Part shown: positions 6,960-14,406 of the stretch, piece after piece
How the letters are laid out: each line of letters begins with the position of its first letter
Position numbering within the stretch: position 1 is the stretch's first letter
Source: Terriglobia bacterium
GTDB taxonomy: Bacteria > Acidobacteriota > Terriglobia > Bryobacterales > Bryobacteraceae
Length of the DNA stretch: 34,458 bases
Assembly: GCA_025358575.1 (NCBI GenBank)
Contig: JANYJA010000112.1
Span: 1-34,458 of the forward strand
Direction of reading: 5' to 3'
The notes under the pieces: model-generated
What the model saw: only the letters and a program-made list of their open reading frames with translations
Told to the model about the DNA's origin: nothing
Database searches by the model: none
Made by a program: the position numbers and the translations under genes

Positions 6960-7634
6960 TCACCGTCCTGCGGAAAACGCCGCGCTGCGCACGCGGTAAT
7001 GCTTGCGGCTGTCGGCTTCGGCGCGCAGGCCCTTTAGAAGCTTGCCCGACCACAGAACCTGCGTCTGCCGCAAATTCAATTGCAGCGTGGAGCAGGACGC
7101 CGCATTCACATTCTGCGCGATAGCGACCAGCGCCGTTGCCGTCTTCTCCACCGCATGGCGCAGACGGAACCACGACGCCAGCGAGATGCGCCGGGCCTGC
7201 TGCGGCGGGGTGTCGGCGAGATCCATCACAATCAGCCCGAATCCCCCCGCCTGCACTAGCAGATCGGTAGCTTTGAGCGCGTGTTCCGCATTGCCGCCGC
7301 AGCGAATCCAAAGGATTTGCGGAAGACGGACACCGGCACATTCCGCGGATTCCGGGTCGAATGCGCCAGTAGTGTCGATCACCGCGCAGAACTCTTCACG
7401 GCTGGTAGCCTGCGCCAGCAGCGAGAGCATCACGGTGGTGCGCCCCGTGGATGCCGCCCCGAATATCTCCGTCAAGCCGCCGCGCGGCAGTCCGCCGGTA
7501 AGTTCATCAATTGATTGGATTCCGGTCGGCAGCGACTCCTGAACCGGCCGCCGGTCGACTCCAAATGCCGGGTCCCACCGTAGGCCAAGGGTGGATGAAA
7601 TATGAGAGCGGAGAGCCGCTGCGGAGGTCGCCAT
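6960..7634 (-). CDS. imuA: ImuA, RecA-like ATPase-fold protein of the mutasome
   Basis: ImuA-type protein of 224 residues from the ATG at 7634 (MATSAAALRSHI). The frame stays open to 7778, but the upstream residues are basic, low-complexity and unlike the family, so I reject the longer start. A RecA-like core is visible: LPTGIQSIDELTGGLPRGGLTEIFG leads to a Walker-A-like loop GAASTGRTT, in which the usual Lys is Arg, and then FCAVIDTTGAFDPES. This degenerate P-loop suggests a structural role. In other bacteria ImuA inhibits RecA and helps assemble ImuB/DnaE2, usually under LexA control. First gene of the imuA-imuB-dnaE2 operon; an inverted repeat lies 17-35 bases upstream. Confidence 0.85.
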   Translation of the reverse strand: MATSAAALRSHISSTLGLRWDPAFGVDRRPVQESLPTGIQSIDELTGGLPRGGLTEIFGAASTGRTTVMLSLLAQATSREEFCAVIDTTGAFDPESAECAGVRLPQILWIRCGGNAEHALKATDLLVQAGGFGLIVMDLADTPPQQARRISLASWFRLRHAVEKTATALVAIAQNVNAASCSTLQLNLRQTQVLWSGKLLKGLRAEADSRKHYRVRSAAFSAGR

Positions 7635-7650
7635 TTTCGCCTTTTCTTCG

Positions 7651-7669
7651 CTGCACTCTACTTTTGCAG
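7651..7669 (-). promoter_or_regulatory. Inverted repeat upstream of imuA, possible operator
   Basis: CTGCA-N9-TGCAG lies 17 bases upstream of the imuA ATG. Its position and CTG/CAG ends resemble a LexA (SOS) box, and imuA operons are commonly LexA-regulated. The spacing does not fit the E. coli CTGT-N8-ACAG pattern and I do not know the LexA motif of this lineage, so this is only a candidate. Confidence 0.25.
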
Positions 7670-8222
7670 AAAATGAGGAAAGGCGCAAGGGTGGTTCGTG
7701 TCTTGATCCCCAAGGGAAGCTTGGCCTTCGGCACCGCGTGCGGGTTGATCTTCTATCGGTCTGCCCTTCTCTGGTCAACGCGGGGCATCACCGACGACGA
7801 CTTGCCATTCCGACTTAAAAAGCTTTCAGTAAATGCTGCCGCCGCGCGTATCGGCCGAGATGGTCGCCAATAAACGCTGTCCAACATTTTTGCCGGTAAT
7901 GTTCCATTCGCTTCCCAACTTCCGAGTGGCCGACGATTTGGACAGTATCCGTAAACGCCACGCCGTCACCGTGGGTTATCTGCGGCGTTTCGCAGCCACA
8001 CTCTGGGAAACGCGGTTCTCCTTTCCTAATTTCCGGATTAAAAGGAATTCAGAGAGTTGCCGAACACATAAATTGTGGCGTTCGAAGGTCTACCATAGGC
8101 ATCGCCTCGTCGCCATTCCACCTAAAGCCTGCCTCAAGGGTCATCAGCTTGTTCGCGCATCTCATTGCACGCGTGGCAAGCCCTTCGTACATGACCGAAA
8201 GGGTGCTAGATAGAATCACTGT
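7670..8222. other. Non-coding spacer between imuA and the unknown pair
   Basis: About 550 bases with no convincing gene. Open frames here (for example 7833-8213 plus) are rich in Arg, Ser and Pro and lack any recognisable motif. One imperfect hairpin is visible at 8019-8046: TCCTTT-CC-TAAT, a six-base loop, then ATTA-AAAGGA, with a two-base bulge. The imuA promoter and the promoter of the 8223 gene must both lie in this spacer; I cannot place a -35/-10 pair with confidence. Confidence 0.5.
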
Positions 8223-8942
8223 ATGCCTGTGTCAATGGACGCTTTCAAAACAAGGATCGAAGAGCTAGTCACAGAGCACTACTTTCAGGAACGGGATCGA
8301 CCGCTTCTCCTATCCCATCTTGGTGCGTTAATCGAGAAGGAAGATGCCTGGCCAATGGACCGAAACGATCGGAACTTGCGCCAGTTGATTGAGGCCCTGC
8401 CGAACTCGGATCTGCAGATCGTGCGTGATCCGAAGTCGCCTGCCTATATAGCTGTAGCGCCCACGAGCGAAGTTCTCCGCGTGAACGAGACGATCGCCCG
8501 GCGAGCCAAGAGACTCGAAACGCCAGTTCGCCTAGAAGACATCGCGCGCCCCGTCTTGCTGGCGTTTTGTGCCAATGTTCCAGCTGGAAGCGCTGTATAC
8601 GTTTCCAGGTCACGGCCGTTCCGGTACACCACAATACCAATTGAGGCCGATCGCGCTTTTGAGTGGATTCACATTGAGCCGCAGTATCGTCGCCCGGGGT
8701 TACGGATCGAGAATTTAAGTTCCCTGAATCATGAGGATCGCCATGATCTAGCTACTCGCATTCAGAACTGGTGTGTATCTCACGACGTTCGGCCGGAGCA
8801 ATTCTCGAGGTCGCCCCAGAATGTATTTGCGGAGAACGCACCAACTGCTCTGGAGCGTCTTCTTGCAGCTCAGAAACCCGAAATTCTCCAGGCGCTTATG
8901 ATCCCGGCCGATATCGCGCAAATCTTGTCGAGGATGAAGTAG
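8223..8942 (+). CDS. Unknown protein with LOTUS/OST-HTH-like N-terminus, first gene of an accessory pair
   Basis: Protein of 239 residues that I do not recognise as a named family. Residues ~6-80 have the pattern of a LOTUS/OST-HTH winged helix: LLLSHLGALIEKE, then NLRQLIEALPNSDLQIVRD and a final strand AYIAVAP. These domains bind RNA or G-quadruplexes and in bacteria often accompany PIN/NYN nucleases; the match is by eye only. The rest (VLLAFCANVPAGSAVYVSR near 125-145, then FRYTTIPIE) is mixed alpha/beta without visible catalytic motifs. The start ATG at 8223 has no strong ribosome-binding site; ATG 8235 is an alternative. The next gene begins three bases after the stop, so the two are almost certainly cotranscribed. 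Not membrane-bound, with no signal peptide, so presumably cytoplasmic. Confidence 0.75.
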   Translation: MPVSMDAFKTRIEELVTEHYFQERDRPLLLSHLGALIEKEDAWPMDRNDRNLRQLIEALPNSDLQIVRDPKSPAYIAVAPTSEVLRVNETIARRAKRLETPVRLEDIARPVLLAFCANVPAGSAVYVSRSRPFRYTTIPIEADRAFEWIHIEPQYRRPGLRIENLSSLNHEDRHDLATRIQNWCVSHDVRPEQFSRSPQNVFAENAPTALERLLAAQKPEILQALMIPADIAQILSRMK

Positions 8943-8945
8943 CGC

Positions 8946-9941
8946 ATGCGAAATCGGCGCGACAAACGCCGTACTCTTCCCCTTTCCCGTCCAGTTGCGG
9001 TCAGCGCTGTGGATGTCTATGTGCTTGCCGGACTTCCCCAAGCAGTTTTCAACGCTGCTGCCGGTTTTCTAAATCAGAAAGCCAGGTCAGGCGCCAAAGT
9101 TGTCGGCGTCCCGTCTCCAAACAAGGACGGGCGGCTATACTCGGAAGCGCTGTTGAAGCAGCTACTCAGCTTGGTTCTTCCGTTTGCAGATAGGCGCGTT
9201 CGCAACCGGCCCTCTGGTGCTCCCGTCCAGCCGCAGCGGTTGATGCTTTTTTACGTCCCGGCAAACGACCAAGAGGTGTTGCTCGAGGCCTTCGACTTCT
9301 TTGTTTTTCCGGTCCCTTTGAAGGGGCTGAGCACTTTCGAGCACGGCAGGCAAGGCAGGCACGTTCTAGAATCCTGCTTCATAGGAATCCAAGAAGCACT
9401 GGAAAAAGCGCGCCAGCAATTTGAACTGTTGGTAAAACCAAGAGTTCTGAGCCGCAAATCGGCGGAGGCGCTTCTTTTACCCCCTCGCAATTTCCAATTA
9501 CAATCAGGCCAGATCAGACAGATGTTTCACGAGTTCACTCGAGGTGCCAGAGCTTGGGATGATCACTCAATGGAGGGCGCAACCCTAAAGACGTTTGACC
9601 ATGATGGTCTCCCGACATTTCTTCGAAAATCAGAGCGCCAGACCATTTTCCAGGATGCTCGCGATCTTGTCTTTCCGTGCGCACGACCGGCTGAGCACCA
9701 TGGCACGCCTCCACCCGCATCTGGTAACCAGGATCTTGCTTATCTCCAATACAACTTGAGGAGCGCCTTTCGCTTTGGCGTCCCACTAGAGGAGGGATTC
9801 CATCATGACGTGCAGTTTGAGCAAGGAAGGCTTATTTCCAGCGTGGAATTCCAGTGTTCCCGCAAGGGTTCTGTTCCAGTGAGCGCAAGCCACGTCAACG
9901 TTTATCCAAACGACTACGTTCGGCCCCCATCAACGAAGTAG
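8946..9941 (+). CDS. Unknown cytoplasmic protein, second gene of the accessory pair
   Basis: Protein of 331 residues, unrecognised. The first third looks like an alpha/beta fold: AVDVYVLAGLPQAVFNAA near 20-37, then VVGVPSPNKDGRLYSEALLKQL and the strand RLMLFYVPANDQEVLLEAFD. The C-terminal third has several His and Asp residues (FHHDVQFEQGR near 286-296) and ends with a compact HVNVYPNDYVRPP motif, which could be a functional site. No signal peptide or transmembrane helix. Start ATG three bases after the previous stop. A strong hairpin follows 17 bases after the stop. The pair lies between core repair genes and an aldehyde dehydrogenase, with long non-coding DNA on both sides, as expected for inserted accessory or defence genes; that role is inference only. 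Confidence 0.75.
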   Translation: MRNRRDKRRTLPLSRPVAVSAVDVYVLAGLPQAVFNAAAGFLNQKARSGAKVVGVPSPNKDGRLYSEALLKQLLSLVLPFADRRVRNRPSGAPVQPQRLMLFYVPANDQEVLLEAFDFFVFPVPLKGLSTFEHGRQGRHVLESCFIGIQEALEKARQQFELLVKPRVLSRKSAEALLLPPRNFQLQSGQIRQMFHEFTRGARAWDDHSMEGATLKTFDHDGLPTFLRKSERQTIFQDARDLVFPCARPAEHHGTPPPASGNQDLAYLQYNLRSAFRFGVPLEEGFHHDVQFEQGRLISSVEFQCSRKGSVPVSASHVNVYPNDYVRPPSTK

Positions 9942-10781
9942 GGCTGGAAACAAAAATAGCCGCAGCGCTAACTCGTAGCGACTGCGGCAAAATATCTCAT
10001 AACAAGTTCGCGCACTCTAATCTACGTTCCAGCCGGTCGGTTTGATGGACATTGCACCACCAACCACAGCTTTTCCAGCCGAAGCCGAAATTGCAGGGCC
10101 TAGATAAGGCCATCGGATCTCAAAGCCGCAGCTCTGGAGCATTTCCTTCCCTCTCGGGTCGGTCCGCATCGGATACCACTAGGCGGCGAACTAATGTTCA
10201 CCTCGATTATGCCACATTGGTGGGCTCTCCGAACAGGAAAACATTCGGGAGGTTGCGGACGCCATTCTCACCCAAAAAATTAGCTATCACGCCACAGTTG
10301 TGGCGTCACCCCTCTCCCCGGTGGCCCTTCAGACTCAGCGCGGACCACAGGCACTCAGATCTGAGAGAGTGGCGTTGCGGGAAAGTGCGTGGCCGCCGCT
10401 TGCATCGTAGGCGAATATTCGCTACTCGGAAGTTGAGTAATCGACGCTTGCGGGATCATGCCCGAAAAAGTTCCCGTTACCGGACATTGGCAATCGACTT
10501 TCAATCAGCCCTCGCCGCTAAGGAACCCCTGTGTAGTCGACTAGTGGTTACGGTGGCCCTGTTGCCAACCCTTTGCTCTTCATTTTCGGATTAATCCCGG
10601 ATCACGCGCATCCGGAAATTGTCCAAGGTTCGGGAACAGTCGTCTTGACGGACCGAAAACACTCTCCCCGAGATCTAAGTTCGAAGTCCTACAGCCGCCG
10701 CGAAGAATCACGAAGCACCAGATCCGCTTGCCTATTCGCGATTTGCATTCCTTAGCCCGGAGGCGTATTTTAACGGGAGAC
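9942..10781. other. Long palindrome-rich non-coding spacer
   Basis: About 840 bases without a credible gene; the longest frame (10052-10594 plus) is Arg/Ser-rich and motif-free. Visible structure: the 12-bp-stem hairpin at 9959-9988; a perfect 8+2+8 inverted repeat at 10289-10306 (ACGCCACA-GT-TGTGGCGT); a perfect 12-base palindrome GCGAATATTCGC at 10411-10422, followed at once by TACTC-N7-GAGTA (10423-10439); and TAGTCGACTA at 10534-10543. The promoter of the aldehyde dehydrogenase gene must be at the right end. It may be a decayed gene region or a structured spacer. Confidence 0.5.
9959..9988. terminator. 12-bp-stem hairpin after the unknown pair
   Basis: GCCGCAG-CGCTA, a five-base loop ACTCG, then TAGCG-A-CTGCGGC: a twelve-pair stem with one bulged A, 17 bases after the stop at 9941. 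On the plus strand it is followed by A-rich, not T-rich, sequence. On the minus strand it is followed by TATTTTTGTTT, so it is a better intrinsic terminator for leftward transcripts. It may act as a 3'-end stabiliser or weak terminator for the pair. Confidence 0.45.
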
Positions 10782-10788
10782 AAAGGAG
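10782..10788 (+). promoter_or_regulatory. Ribosome binding site of the aldehyde dehydrogenase gene
   Basis: AAAGGAG ends seven bases before the ATG at 10796, a near-ideal Shine-Dalgarno sequence that fixes the start. Confidence 0.8.
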
Positions 10789-10795
10789 CCCTCGT

Positions 10796-12295
10796 ATGGC
10801 TACAGCGACAGTGCAGATCGATCCTCAGGTTCAACGCTTTCTAGACGCCCCCCGCAAGATGCTCATCGGCAACCGGTGGGTGGAAGCCGTTTCTGGCAAG
10901 ACCTTTCCGGTTTACAATCCCGCCACGGGAGAGCAGATGGCCCGCGTCGCACAAGGCGAAGCGAAGGACATTGACCTAGCCGTCAAGTCGGCTCGCAAAG
11001 CCTTCCAACAAGGCCCCTGGCGCAAGATAACCCCCTCCGAGCGCGGACGCATGATGTGGAAACTGGCCGATTTGCTTGAAGCGAATTTGGAGGAGTTCGC
11101 CATGCTGGAGTCGCTCGACAATGGCAAACCGCTCACCGTCGCGCGCGGGGCCGACGTGCCGCTCGCCATCGACATGTTCCGCTACATGGCCGGTTGGACC
11201 ACAAAGATTGAAGGCAACACCATTCCAATCTCGGTGCCCTATACTCCCGGCGCTCAGTATCTGGCATACACACAGCGCGAACCCGTGGGAGTCGCTGGGC
11301 AGATTATTCCCTGGAATTTTCCTCTCTTGATGGCCGCGTGGAAACTGGCCCCCGCGCTGGCCATGGGTTGCACGGTAATTCTGAAACCGGCTGAACAGAC
11401 TCCGCTCACCGCGCTCCGTCTGGGTGAATTGATCCTGGAAGCCGGCTTTCCCGAGGGCGTTGTCAATATCGTTCCGGGCTATGGCGAAGCCGGCGCCGCG
11501 CTGGCAGCGCACCCCGATGTCGACAAGGTGGCCTTCACCGGTTCCACGGAAGTTGGCAAGCTGGTATTGCAGGCGGCGGGCGGCAATCTAAAAAAAGTGA
11601 CGCTCGAACTGGGGGGCAAGTCGCCCAACGTGGTCTTCCGCGATGCCGACGTCAATGCCGCGATTGATGGAGCCGCCAGCGCCATATTTTTCAACCAAGG
11701 GCAGTGCTGCTGCGCCGGTTCCCGCCTGTATGTGGAGCATGACATCTTCGACCGCGTGGTCGAAGGCGTGGCTGACCGCGCGTCGAAAATTCGCATCCGG
11801 CCGGGTCTTGATCCTGAAAGCGACATGGGTCCGCTGGTGTCACAAGAGCAGCTTGAACGGGTCTGCGGATATCTCGAGAGCGGCCTCGCGCAAGGCGCCA
11901 AGGCGATTTCCGGAGGCAAACGTTCCGGCTCTAGCGGCTACTTCGTTCAGCCAACCATTCTCGTGGACGCGCCGCATGACGCAAAAGTGATGCAGGAAGA
12001 GATCTTCGGTCCAGTGGTGACCGCAACTCCGTTTCGCGACATGGAAGAGTTGGTGCCGCACGCCAATGACTCGGTGTATGGATTAGCCGCGGGCATTTGG
12101 ACTTCGGATCTCGGCAAAGCGCATCGCTTGGCCGCGGAACTGCACGCGGGCACGGTTTGGATCAACTGCTACAACATCTTCGATGCGGCGCTTCCCTTCG
12201 GCGGCTATAAACAGTCCGGCTGGGGCCGCGAGATGGGGCACGACGCGCTCGAACTCTATACGCAGAAGAAGGCGGTCTGCATCCGAATCGGATGA
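10796..12295 (+). CDS. NAD(P)-dependent aldehyde dehydrogenase (phenylacetaldehyde/betaine-aldehyde-like)
   Basis: Full-length 499-residue member of the ALDH superfamily, oxidising an aldehyde to a carboxylic acid in the cytoplasm. Landmarks: the Asn of IIPWNFPLLMAAWK (residue 174), the cofactor loop VAFTGSTEVGK (~246-255), the general-base Glu271 in LELGGKSPN, the catalytic Cys305 within FFNQGQCCCAG, the EEIFGPV motif, and the C-terminal PFGGYKQSGWGRE. The overall pattern is closest to the broad class 1/2 and phenylacetaldehyde or betaine-aldehyde group; the substrate cannot be read from sequence. Preceded by a strong ribosome-binding site. It appears monocistronic, ending eight bases before the end of a convergent gene. 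Confidence 0.95.
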   Translation: MATATVQIDPQVQRFLDAPRKMLIGNRWVEAVSGKTFPVYNPATGEQMARVAQGEAKDIDLAVKSARKAFQQGPWRKITPSERGRMMWKLADLLEANLEEFAMLESLDNGKPLTVARGADVPLAIDMFRYMAGWTTKIEGNTIPISVPYTPGAQYLAYTQREPVGVAGQIIPWNFPLLMAAWKLAPALAMGCTVILKPAEQTPLTALRLGELILEAGFPEGVVNIVPGYGEAGAALAAHPDVDKVAFTGSTEVGKLVLQAAGGNLKKVTLELGGKSPNVVFRDADVNAAIDGAASAIFFNQGQCCCAGSRLYVEHDIFDRVVEGVADRASKIRIRPGLDPESDMGPLVSQEQLERVCGYLESGLAQGAKAISGGKRSGSSGYFVQPTILVDAPHDAKVMQEEIFGPVVTATPFRDMEELVPHANDSVYGLAAGIWTSDLGKAHRLAAELHAGTVWINCYNIFDAALPFGGYKQSGWGREMGHDALELYTQKKAVCIRIG

Positions 12296-12303
12296 GCCCC
12301 CGG

Positions 12304-14406
12304 CTAGAAGGGGAAAAACGACTGAACTGAAATTAACACTGTATCTGTCGCGCCGCCGACGTTTAGTGTGATGGCAATACTGCTGGAACCCACCGCAAGC
12401 GGTATGGCGACATTGATCTGGGTAACGCCAGCGACAATCCCCGGCGCGCTGCCCCCGTAACTTGGAATCACCAAGTCTCCAGAAGGAGACGGGAACCTAC
12501 TAATATTGACGAGGCACCCGACGCAATTGTCCACGGCCAAGACTGTCAGTTGTCCGTCATTGAGGGAGCCAAAGGTCGGGCCAGTGCCGGTCGCCCAAAG
12601 ACTCACGATGGAACCCGGCGGTGCCGCATTATCCCTAGAGTTGACCGTGCCGTCCTGATTCAGTGCGGCTGCGGTCCCGTCGGGATTGGCGAAGATCGCC
12701 GGCGCTGCGGGGACCACGACTGACCGAAAATGCGGCGTTACGGACGCGATGGCGATATCGGCCAGTCCGGCCGGGGCTCTCATGGGAACGATCGCATCGA
12801 TTCGACCCTCCGAGACATAGATCAGCGGGGCGCGCAACCCGCCAACGGTCACAGCGACGCCCGCCAAGGTGGTGGGCAAGACTCCGGCGCTATCAAACGT
12901 GGCATAGGCCTCCGCGGCCGGGCCGATGTGCCGTCCGTAAATTGAAATGAGCTCACCAGCTGCGATGCTGCCTCCCAGCGGAATTCCGTAGCCGCGGACG
13001 AAATCGGGCAACACTCTTTCTTTCGCCAGGGTGACTACGCCAAAGATTCGCGGCGATGGCGGGATTGTGGTTGAAATCGCGGCAACTGTGCCGGCAGCTC
13101 CGGCGGTGTAAACGAGCCCCGTCACGGGGCCCACGGCGACCGCTACCGCGACACCCCCGTAGTGATACAGCGCGGAGTAGACAAGGCGCGATCCTCCGCG
13201 GCTAATACCCACCAAAAACTCCGTGCCTTTCGGCTCGCCATTCGCGTTCGGAAATTCGGAAGAGGTGGTGCTCCCGCTTAACCAGACGACGCCGGCGGCA
13301 TCGACGGCGATGGATTGAGCTGCATCCCTCCCCGCGCCGCCGAGGAACGTGGACCATTCCAACCTTTTTCCGTCAGGCGGCAGCACGGATACGAATGCGT
13401 CGCCTCCCAAAAACCCGAGTCCTCCGAAGACCGGCTGGACGACTCCCGCCGTTACTGAAAACTTTGGATCGACGGTCATGCCGGCCACGTACGCGTTCCC
13501 CGCGGCATCGACAGCGATAGCCGACGCTGTGGTCTTGGCACCCCCGCAGTCATCGGCTGCGTCCAGATACGTCAGAAAATCAAGGCTGGTGCCTGCCGAA
13601 TTGATTTTGGCGACGAACGCGCCCACCCCCTGTTTCACAAGCGCTTCGGATGAGACCGGCAGATCCGTTGAATCGGTATTGCCCACGAGGTAAGCATTGC
13701 CGCTTCCGTCGACTCCAATGCCGACCCCTGCGGTTGTGAGCCCGTCCCCGGTCGGGTGACAATCCAGAGGGAGCGCCGTCCCGGCCAGTAGCCCACCATA
13801 AAGAATGTTGTCGCCGCCCGGCGAGATTTTCGCGACAAACGCACCTTGACGAACTCCGACGTTGCCGCGGGCATCGGGCATGCCGCGAGTTACCGGAAAA
13901 TCCGATGCGTAAGTTGAACCCGCGACGTACAGGTTCCCCTGAGCGTCCGTGGCGACGGCCGCGATGCTCGATGCCCCCAGTGTCCCGCCAAACCAAGTCG
14001 AATACAGAATGGTGCCGCCGTCGGGACTGAATTTCACGATAAAGCCAGAACCGCCCGAGTTGGGCTTCTTTTGCAGAGCTTTGCTTAGAGGAAAGTCGAG
14101 CGACGTGCTCGATCCCGCGACGTAAATTTTTCCGGCAGGGTCAAGAACGATGGAAGTGGAAGTGTCTATTCCTTTGCCACCCAGCGCGACAGTAAACACG
14201 AGGCTTCCATTGGGGTCAAGTTTGGTGAGGAAGACATCGGTCGAGGCCGGAGGCGAGAGCAGGCGCGATCCCGCGATGTAGGCATTGCCGGCGGCGTCCG
14301 TCGTTATGGCGGCCGAATGGTACGGATAGTTGTCGCCGATGTAAGTGCTATATTCAGCTCCCAATGCCGGGAGCACCAGGATCAAGAGGCCGAATTTCGT
14401 TAGCAT
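12304..14406 (-). CDS. Secreted SBBP-type beta-propeller protein with C-terminal TIGR03437 module
   Basis: A 700-residue exported protein with a short hydrophobic leader (MLTKFGLLILVLPALGAEYS). Residues ~20-440 are repeats of the SBBP type: each has a phrase like AVDAAGNAYVAGMT or ATDAQGNLYVAGST, then a DFP element and a KFSPDG or KISPGG strand, giving a beta-propeller of seven or so blades. The C-terminal ~230 residues (GGSIAAGELISIYGRHIGP, ATGTGPTFGSLNDG, GVTQINVAIP) match the Solibacter-type TIGR03437 domain. Function is unknown; it is presumably surface or extracellular. It is the best taxonomic marker in the window. No neighbour is clearly linked: convergent with the aldehyde dehydrogenase and nine bases downstream of the TIM-barrel gene on the same strand. 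Confidence 0.9.
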   Translation of the reverse strand: MLTKFGLLILVLPALGAEYSTYIGDNYPYHSAAITTDAAGNAYIAGSRLLSPPASTDVFLTKLDPNGSLVFTVALGGKGIDTSTSIVLDPAGKIYVAGSSTSLDFPLSKALQKKPNSGGSGFIVKFSPDGGTILYSTWFGGTLGASSIAAVATDAQGNLYVAGSTYASDFPVTRGMPDARGNVGVRQGAFVAKISPGGDNILYGGLLAGTALPLDCHPTGDGLTTAGVGIGVDGSGNAYLVGNTDSTDLPVSSEALVKQGVGAFVAKINSAGTSLDFLTYLDAADDCGGAKTTASAIAVDAAGNAYVAGMTVDPKFSVTAGVVQPVFGGLGFLGGDAFVSVLPPDGKRLEWSTFLGGAGRDAAQSIAVDAAGVVWLSGSTTSSEFPNANGEPKGTEFLVGISRGGSRLVYSALYHYGGVAVAVAVGPVTGLVYTAGAAGTVAAISTTIPPSPRIFGVVTLAKERVLPDFVRGYGIPLGGSIAAGELISIYGRHIGPAAEAYATFDSAGVLPTTLAGVAVTVGGLRAPLIYVSEGRIDAIVPMRAPAGLADIAIASVTPHFRSVVVPAAPAIFANPDGTAAALNQDGTVNSRDNAAPPGSIVSLWATGTGPTFGSLNDGQLTVLAVDNCVGCLVNISRFPSPSGDLVIPSYGGSAPGIVAGVTQINVAIPLAVGSSSIAITLNVGGATDTVLISVQSFFPF

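Follow-up and report, generated by a model that had tools for sequence, protein, structure and literature searches.

An unnamed gene pair with a conserved structured RNA element in Acidobacteria and Proteobacteria, a possible RNA-protein module

Analysis of a 34,458-nt stretch of DNA from a Terriglobia bacterium (contig JANYJA010000112.1, hereafter the window; the genome carrying it comprises 4.77 Mb in 261 contigs) disclosed an unnamed pair of genes, A and B, accompanied by a structured RNA element. The pair and its element are well supported; a function as a defence or toxin-antitoxin-like ribonucleoprotein is the best explanation we can offer and remains unproven. The features are listed in Table 1.

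Table 1. Position and composition of the gene pair and the RNA element in the window
Feature	Position	Strand	Description and basis
Gene A	8223..8942	+	239 aa, ATG start; ORF call
Gene A, predicted parts			LOTUS-like winged helix (~residues 1-83), then middle region, then helical C-terminus ending IPADIAQILSR
Gene B	8946..9941	+	331 aa, ATG start; ORF call
Gene B, predicted parts			Rossmann-like N-terminal domain (~20-170), then C-terminal domain with conserved residues
Structured RNA core, convergent to gene B	10013..10193	-	R1 match of 141.1 bits (window row in training set), covariation, conservation
Terminator-like hairpin of the RNA gene	9949..9988	-	Stem GCCGCAG..CTGCGGC (9959-9988), then T-rich run (9949-9958); by eye

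Both open reading frames are intact and lie 3 nt apart, as an earlier note on this DNA, made from the sequence alone, had described them. That note placed the pair between about 550 and 850 bases of non-coding DNA. The lengths are about right, with 444 or 588 nt between imuA and A, set by the choice of imuA start, and 854 nt between B and the aldehyde dehydrogenase gene, but the downstream part encodes a conserved structured RNA. GC3 is 0.59 in A and 0.55 in B; of 18 other genes measured in the window, 17 have values of 0.64-0.75 and one has 0.575. Judged by composition, the low values of A and B are as would be expected of acquired genes. An insertion was not demonstrable by comparison with an empty site, because the flanks of imuA in 10 relatives lack the window's aldehyde dehydrogenase. 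No tRNA gene was found in the window, and the repeat finder, applied to positions 7500-11000, returned one two-copy direct repeat (25 nt, 76% alike, 1284 nt apart).

A and B are co-inherited as a sparse, conserved pair. A lies directly upstream of B in all 17 intact copies of B that were found, with a gap of -37 to +11 nt, which answers the question whether the genes travel together and meets the objection, raised in the earlier note, that homologues might never occur as a pair. In this count, L017, L022, and L029, which repeat L010, L011, and L012, were not entered a second time, L154 forms part of L018, and L023 and L024 represent one site in two relatives, whose upstream DNA is 95% identical. 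Trees of A and B are congruent (r = 0.961, n = 17; r = 0.870, n = 12), and none of 5000 permutations gave a correlation as high. Six more loci are fragmentary or decayed (L009, L027, L025, L028, L063, and L067). Remnants of A before B are still visible in L009, where the copy is split by IS110- and IS3-like elements, and in L027, where it is spread over several frames; no A remnant was detected in the other four. L063 (9989-10633), on the Cupriavidus plasmid pMTS3, is a solitary B-like ORF with no detectable A.

Neither protein could be assigned to a known family. Searches against Pfam (RVT_1 included) and PADLOC 2.0.0 gave no family at E<=10 for A or B, six proteins of a sister clade described below gave none in PADLOC at E<=0.1, and NCBIfam and PHROGs gave no family, the few listed rows having E values of 0.08-0.24. 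The earlier note had found no known motif in either protein and would have been refuted by a known housekeeping family; none emerged from these profile searches. A and B belong to undescribed families, a statement that we make only against the libraries searched.

Relatives of the pair occur in Acidobacteria and Proteobacteria at 29-51% identity, the most divergent being L029 at 16-21%. Among 61 related genomes, B was found in four (the window's own included, and one marginal) and A in three. Of 72,556 plasmid records, two carry A and the same two carry B, namely Sphingobium pTK1 and Agrobacterium p1; a search of 50,697 phage records gave no match to B. Scanning genome contigs with a profile yielded 14 loci, which belong to Acidobacteria, Komagataeibacter, Phenylobacterium, Brevundimonas, and Marinicella. 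A search of genome contigs with a single protein recovered none of 65 candidate stretches, and viral contigs searched with the A/B alignment gave no match. The 396 genomes of the phylum contributed three matches, the window and two marginal ones, and 385 alphaproteobacterial genomes matched in the centre genome only.

With L029 as the query, matches appeared in 6 of 121 genomes, and three of these (L064, L065, and L066) define a sister clade, A'B', of which a further copy, L070, is present in one contig of the viral collection. The sister-clade profile matched 1 of the 396 phylum genomes, the window itself, and plasmids searched with B' gave no match. B and B' are homologous without the linking member (hhalign E 6.8e-8; the control comparison of A against B gave 0.3-0.6%). 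A and A' are linked through L029 only (E 2.4e-5 and 1.7e-13), their direct comparison giving 0.7% (E 0.078). One genome, G483, has both kinds of pair (L066 and L018).

An RNA element downstream of B, missed in the first reading of this DNA, is conserved, covaries, and co-occurs with the pair. The corresponding DNA is common to the loci; among five of them, the element is 66-82% identical in nucleotides, compared with 51-69% for the coding DNA of A and B and 40-48% further downstream. Both strands fold well below shuffled sequence: a six-locus alignment gave -87.5 for the minus strand (z -17) and -70.2 for the plus strand (z -15) against column shuffles. RNAalifold on 13 sequences proposed 21 pairs, 14 of them with compensatory change. 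In an alignment of 15 sequences, which was fitted to the model, this structure had 94.9% of its cells paired, and 14 pairs (34 cells) carried two-sided changes. No shuffle out of 500 scored as high on four measures including the covariation score, three reached the pair-type count, and slid versions of the structure had at most 7 pairs with two-sided changes. A structure of 44 pairs, from the best-folding of five unfitted alignments, had 91.2% of its cells paired and 30 two-sided pairs, compared with maxima of 21 in shuffles and 16 in slid versions. The multi-helix core is conserved, and the hairpins are very variable.

Searched across 54 loci, the model R1 of this RNA gave 15 matches, all of them adjoining the pair or what remains of it, and it found L025 (E 5e-48) and L028 (E 1e-18), neither of which was in the training set. 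It had no match in 31 control regions, nor at L009, L063, L067, L029, L064, L065, L066, or L070. Under stricter filters, five of 151 related genomes matched, and the pair is present in all four with a strong match (G000, G020, G050, and G483). A weak 67-nt match of 21 bits (L157, G024:C17:248766-248832), in a genome without a match to A or B, is probably due to chance. Viral contigs searched with the RNA pattern gave none. In Rfam 15, no covariance model matched window positions 7600-10900 at E<=0.1, and the scan of six other loci returned two tRNAs and one sub-threshold Acido-Lenti-1, none of them at the RNA element. The Acido-Lenti-1 similarity (L023:3516-3560, Granulicella; 29.4 bits with a cut-off of 37) lies shortly downstream of the pair.

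A separate RNA gene with a transcript of ~250 nt is inferred from these data, in the absence of expression data. On the minus strand, most of 15 loci show, by eye, a hairpin with a T-rich run that adjoins the stop codon of B; a consensus scan of window positions 9900-10450 returned neither promoter nor terminator. Of the 15 loci, 9 have promoter-like sites 39-44 nt ahead of the core, and only those of L022, L024, L025, and L016 clearly beat shuffled sequence; in L020, L026, and L027 such sites are at chance level and elsewhere, and none was found in the window, L008, or L028. Of all the results, this RNA most strengthens the suggestion of the earlier note that the unit is directed at nucleic acids.

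A second conserved element precedes A' in the sister clade (L064 600-924, L065 5570-5896, L066 2290-2626, and L070 4850-5188), showing that both clades share the plan of a structured RNA element touching the pair. It contains a TTGACA box, and a GC stem with a T-run just before A', although the promoter boxes had no shuffle control; the fold is -54.6 on the plus strand versus -28.3 on the minus strand. Since this RNA has no match to R1, common descent of the two RNAs is unproven, and the sister-clade element is a candidate for a separate RNA family. Its runs of three to five G beside a LOTUS-like protein are suggestive, with no test against chance; binding of G-quadruplex RNA is reported for LOTUS domains, including those of bacteria (PMC12247748, citing Ding 2020).

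The N-terminus of A is supported as a LOTUS-like winged helix by a predicted model and by profile comparison, the latter giving only moderate support for the window clade. The model (pLDDT 89.7, pTM 0.57) places helices at residues 5-22, 30-39, and 52-57 and strands at 64-69 and 72-80, and in this prediction A meets the winged helix-turn-helix fold criterion of OST-HTH/LOTUS. Foldseek alone returned nothing significant for it (best E 0.21). By VIA fold comparison, LOTUS domains make up six of the nine best-ranked aligned chains and come from Tejas (Z 6.7, rmsd 2.7, 71 aligned), TDRD5 (Z 6.7, rmsd 3.1, 74 aligned), Oskar (Z 6.6, rmsd 2.5-2.6, 66-68 aligned), and TDRD7 (Z 6.5, rmsd 2.8, 73 aligned); the top rows include the chains 8wxs_B (6.7, 2.7, 71) and 3s93_B (6.7, 3.1, 74). 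Because ORC, at rank 3, and other winged helices lie within one Z unit of the LOTUS rows, the fold alone leaves the assignment undecided.

Profiles were compared with OST-HTH domains from related genomes, with LexA winged helices as the control. The N-terminus of the whole family matched the OST-HTH profile at 94.3% (E 1e-7), that of the sister clade at 91.0%, and that of the window clade at 44.6%, against 0.1-0.2% for the LexA control and a best of 100 column shuffles of 17.2% (window clade) and 3.1% (sister clade). Compared directly, the N-termini of the two clades gave only 5.7%. In OST-HTH domains, helices 2 and 3 are separated by an insert containing two or more helical turns, and this insert harbours the Ghxph motif (PMC2848206). 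This helical insert is absent in A, residues 40-51 being without helix in what is only a predicted model. By eye, the window clade keeps hxph without the defining glycine, and Ghxph is present in four sister-clade proteins (GFKNF, GLKNF, GFGKF, and GLRNF). The Pfam model PF12872 (cut-off 23.8 bits) does not match the window protein; all three sister-clade A' proteins scanned match it below the cut-off (14.1-18.9 bits, E 0.0014-0.044). Sequence profiles against the PDB gave chance-level rows only for A. The LOTUS/OST-HTH N-terminus proposed in the earlier note therefore holds at the level of the fold, where other winged helices tie with it, and in the family-wide profile search, where similarity exceeds the LexA control, but is weaker for the window protein itself. 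Set beside OST-HTH/LOTUS proteins (PF12872) and the bacterial LK-nuclease/DUF88-LOTUS proteins, A shares the winged-helix fold and profile similarity, and sister-clade A' also the Ghxph motif; A differs in having no Pfam match to DUF88 or LK nuclease, in remaining below the Pfam cut-off, and in having a separate partner, B, and an adjacent putative RNA gene.

The best of five models of B reached pLDDT 85.7 and pTM 0.85, the other four having pLDDT 69-79. Its N-terminal half is Rossmann-like in this prediction, with a best VIA Z of 7.6 to generic receiver-like folds, a level also reached by models without relatives. Foldseek against PDB and BFVD gave no match at E<=0.001, and sequence profiles against the PDB gave none. 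The C-terminal alpha/beta domain is a fold without a recognised relative in these searches. The VIA rows barely test it; PIN/NYN, CARF, and restriction folds are missing from the listed rows, which excludes nothing. Across 17 sequences from both clades, no substitution occurs at D237 (the Asp of a D-x-R stretch), H286, D288, P321, or V325, and almost none at N318 and R326. Of the two motifs singled out in the earlier note, the HVNVYPND end is borne out at N318 and P321, as well as at V325 and R326, while its first H varies between H and Y; in the HHD cluster, the two outer residues, H286 and D288, never vary, and the sister clade has Y in place of the middle H. The conserved D, HxD, N, P, and R look like an active site, a reading that rests on sequence alone. 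As the C-terminal fold has no recognised relative, the term nuclease for B is a guess from these residues.

Some copies of the pair have defence genes as neighbours. The neighbours picked by eye are AbiEi and AbiEii in Sphingobium; an AbiP2-type reverse transcriptase and an ORF whose Mrr-like match narrowly misses the Pfam cut-off on Agrobacterium plasmid p1 (L009:12138-18735); a type I restriction subunit in G050; PtuA and PtuB (Septu) with a methyltransferase in Marinicella; a PLD/NgoFVII-like protein ~5 kb away in Komagataeibacter; an integrase in Phenylobacterium; and a ParB-methylase beside the copy of the viral contig. We read the AbiP2-like gene as another system. A rule-based scan used 149 of 155 picked ORFs within 5.5 kb at 22 loci, six short ones being dropped; its crude ORF rule missed real genes (AbiEii; PtuA lay beyond range). 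As a control, 191 ORFs were taken from 21 hand-placed regions, very long, edge, and a few other ORFs were omitted, and 148 proteins were drawn at random from the remainder. At E<=1e-15, among the matches listed (25 of 76 families), the neighbours matched AbiP2, type I restriction, AbiEi, DrmC, and type II methyltransferase models, together with the generic PD-T4-6 and C3a189 kinases, mad3, and mad6. The 148 control proteins matched only mad3 (4 proteins), mad8, and RtcR/PspF CARF-AAA-HTH models, with no match to the AbiE, AbiP2, type I restriction, or Septu models. The DrmC match, by one neighbour within 5.5 kb of a pair locus, has E 1.6e-143. tRNA genes at L064:2823-2896 and L026:13424-13497, the latter beside a phage-type integrase (12252-13358), are possible island borders.

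This enrichment is suggestive but small, and we saw no known defence gene next to the copy in the window, nor next to most of the other copies in Acidobacteria. The possibility of a defence module, raised in the earlier note, thus gains some defence-gene neighbours and a link that is circumstantial. Literature on LOTUS/OST-HTH with defence terms yielded no such module among the matches listed; in PMC3710099, which matched OST-HTH and anti-phage, OST-HTH and LOTUS are absent from the main text.

The mutasome genes adjoining the pair were considered separately. A dyad, CTGCA-N9-TGCAG, lies just upstream of imuA (window 7651-7669) and is a two-mismatch variant of CTGTA-N9-TACAG, a sequence that 5 of 30 relatives have ahead of imuA; the window dyad is a possible SOS operator. 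Because no such site was found near A, co-regulation of the pair with the mutasome was dropped. In Acidobacteriaceae TAA 166 (L021:7251-14886), the order on one strand is A-B-imuA-imuB-dnaE2, which makes this a second pair locus next to the mutasome, though differently arranged; its dnaE2 is matched in two pieces that lie in different frames and meet near 14035.

Our best explanation is an undescribed three-part RNA-protein module, possibly for defence, and we consider it evenly poised between right and wrong. Its parts would be a ~250-nt structured RNA from its own gene, the LOTUS-like A, and B with a putative acid/histidine/arginine site. Most likely, A binds the RNA and either recruits B or holds it back. 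B would be the effector and is probably a nuclease or some other enzyme that processes nucleic acids or nucleotides. Activity of an invading phage or plasmid would upset this complex and release or direct B, bringing either the invader or the cell to a halt. It is inferred, rather than shown, that the RNA is transcribed separately, that A binds it, that B is catalytic, and that the module serves defence. Weighing against this explanation are the C-terminal fold of B, which has no recognised relative; the lack in window A of the OST-HTH glycine, helical insert, and PF12872 match; the lack of an R1 match in the sister-clade RNA, L009, and L063; and the absence of a promoter match for the window RNA and of expression data. 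That the module is a new kind of immune system, in which an effector enzyme from a family not yet described is controlled by a LOTUS-like protein that reads a dedicated structured RNA (perhaps one with variable hairpins that act as sensors or guides), can be held only tentatively. An RNA-based toxin-antitoxin of type III-like logic seems rather unlikely. Toxin B would be neutralised by the RNA with A as an adaptor, plasmids and islands would be stabilised, and abortive infection would be a by-product; plasmid-borne copies, decaying copies (L009 and L027), and compact coupled genes with a structured RNA agree with this. Like ToxIN, the unit is small and mobile and combines a structured RNA with what may be an effector protein. 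Type III antitoxins, however, are repeat RNAs upstream of one toxin gene, whereas here two proteins are kept, the RNA has no tandem repeats and is convergent and downstream of B in this clade, and there is no family match.

RNA-guided interference, in which variable segments of the RNA, itself a scaffold, would base-pair with RNA or DNA of the invader and A and B would cut this target, draws on the conserved multi-helix core with very variable hairpins, the nucleic-acid-binding type of fold predicted for A, and the putative active site in B. It is improbable in our view, as the variable parts are inside hairpins with no evident free guide segment, and no known guided-nuclease family is matched. 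Retrons and defence reverse-transcriptase systems with an RNA likewise have a structured RNA by protein genes and some defence neighbours, but the module here has no reverse transcriptase. We find it quite improbable that the downstream element is a mere regulatory tail or bidirectional terminator and A-B an ordinary accessory enzyme pair. In this clade the element does abut the stop codon of B, no promoter match was found for it in the window, and the plus strand also folds well; yet the minus strand folds better, only there does a T-run follow the stem, promoter-like sites exist in 9 of 15 loci (few clearly above shuffled sequence), and the sister-clade RNA precedes A' and has promoter- and terminator-like sites. 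A stress or repair module, with the pair acting with ImuA-ImuB-DnaE2 or being induced by DNA damage, is very improbable despite the two loci that adjoin the mutasome: no mutasome gene is present in six other pair loci (L016, L018, L019, L024, L064, and L066), a strong ImuA match (E<=1e-25) occurs in 45 of 61 genomes compared with four for B, and no operator-like site was found near A.

The three-part module, our preferred explanation, resembles Septu and AbiE, which are both compact two-gene systems, sparse, and located beside some copies of the pair; it differs from them in that A and B have no PADLOC match and in its RNA component. Both proteins and the RNA stand outside the described families of the libraries searched, yet they remain associated in lineages from Acidobacteria to Alpha- and Gammaproteobacteria. 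If a complex of the RNA with A controls B, this would be a new RNA-protein system, possibly immune, and would place a LOTUS-like domain in a dedicated bacterial ribonucleoprotein. The LOTUS domain is known from small-RNA biology in animal germ cells, and an immune module of this kind, if true, would be a prokaryotic counterpart of that link.
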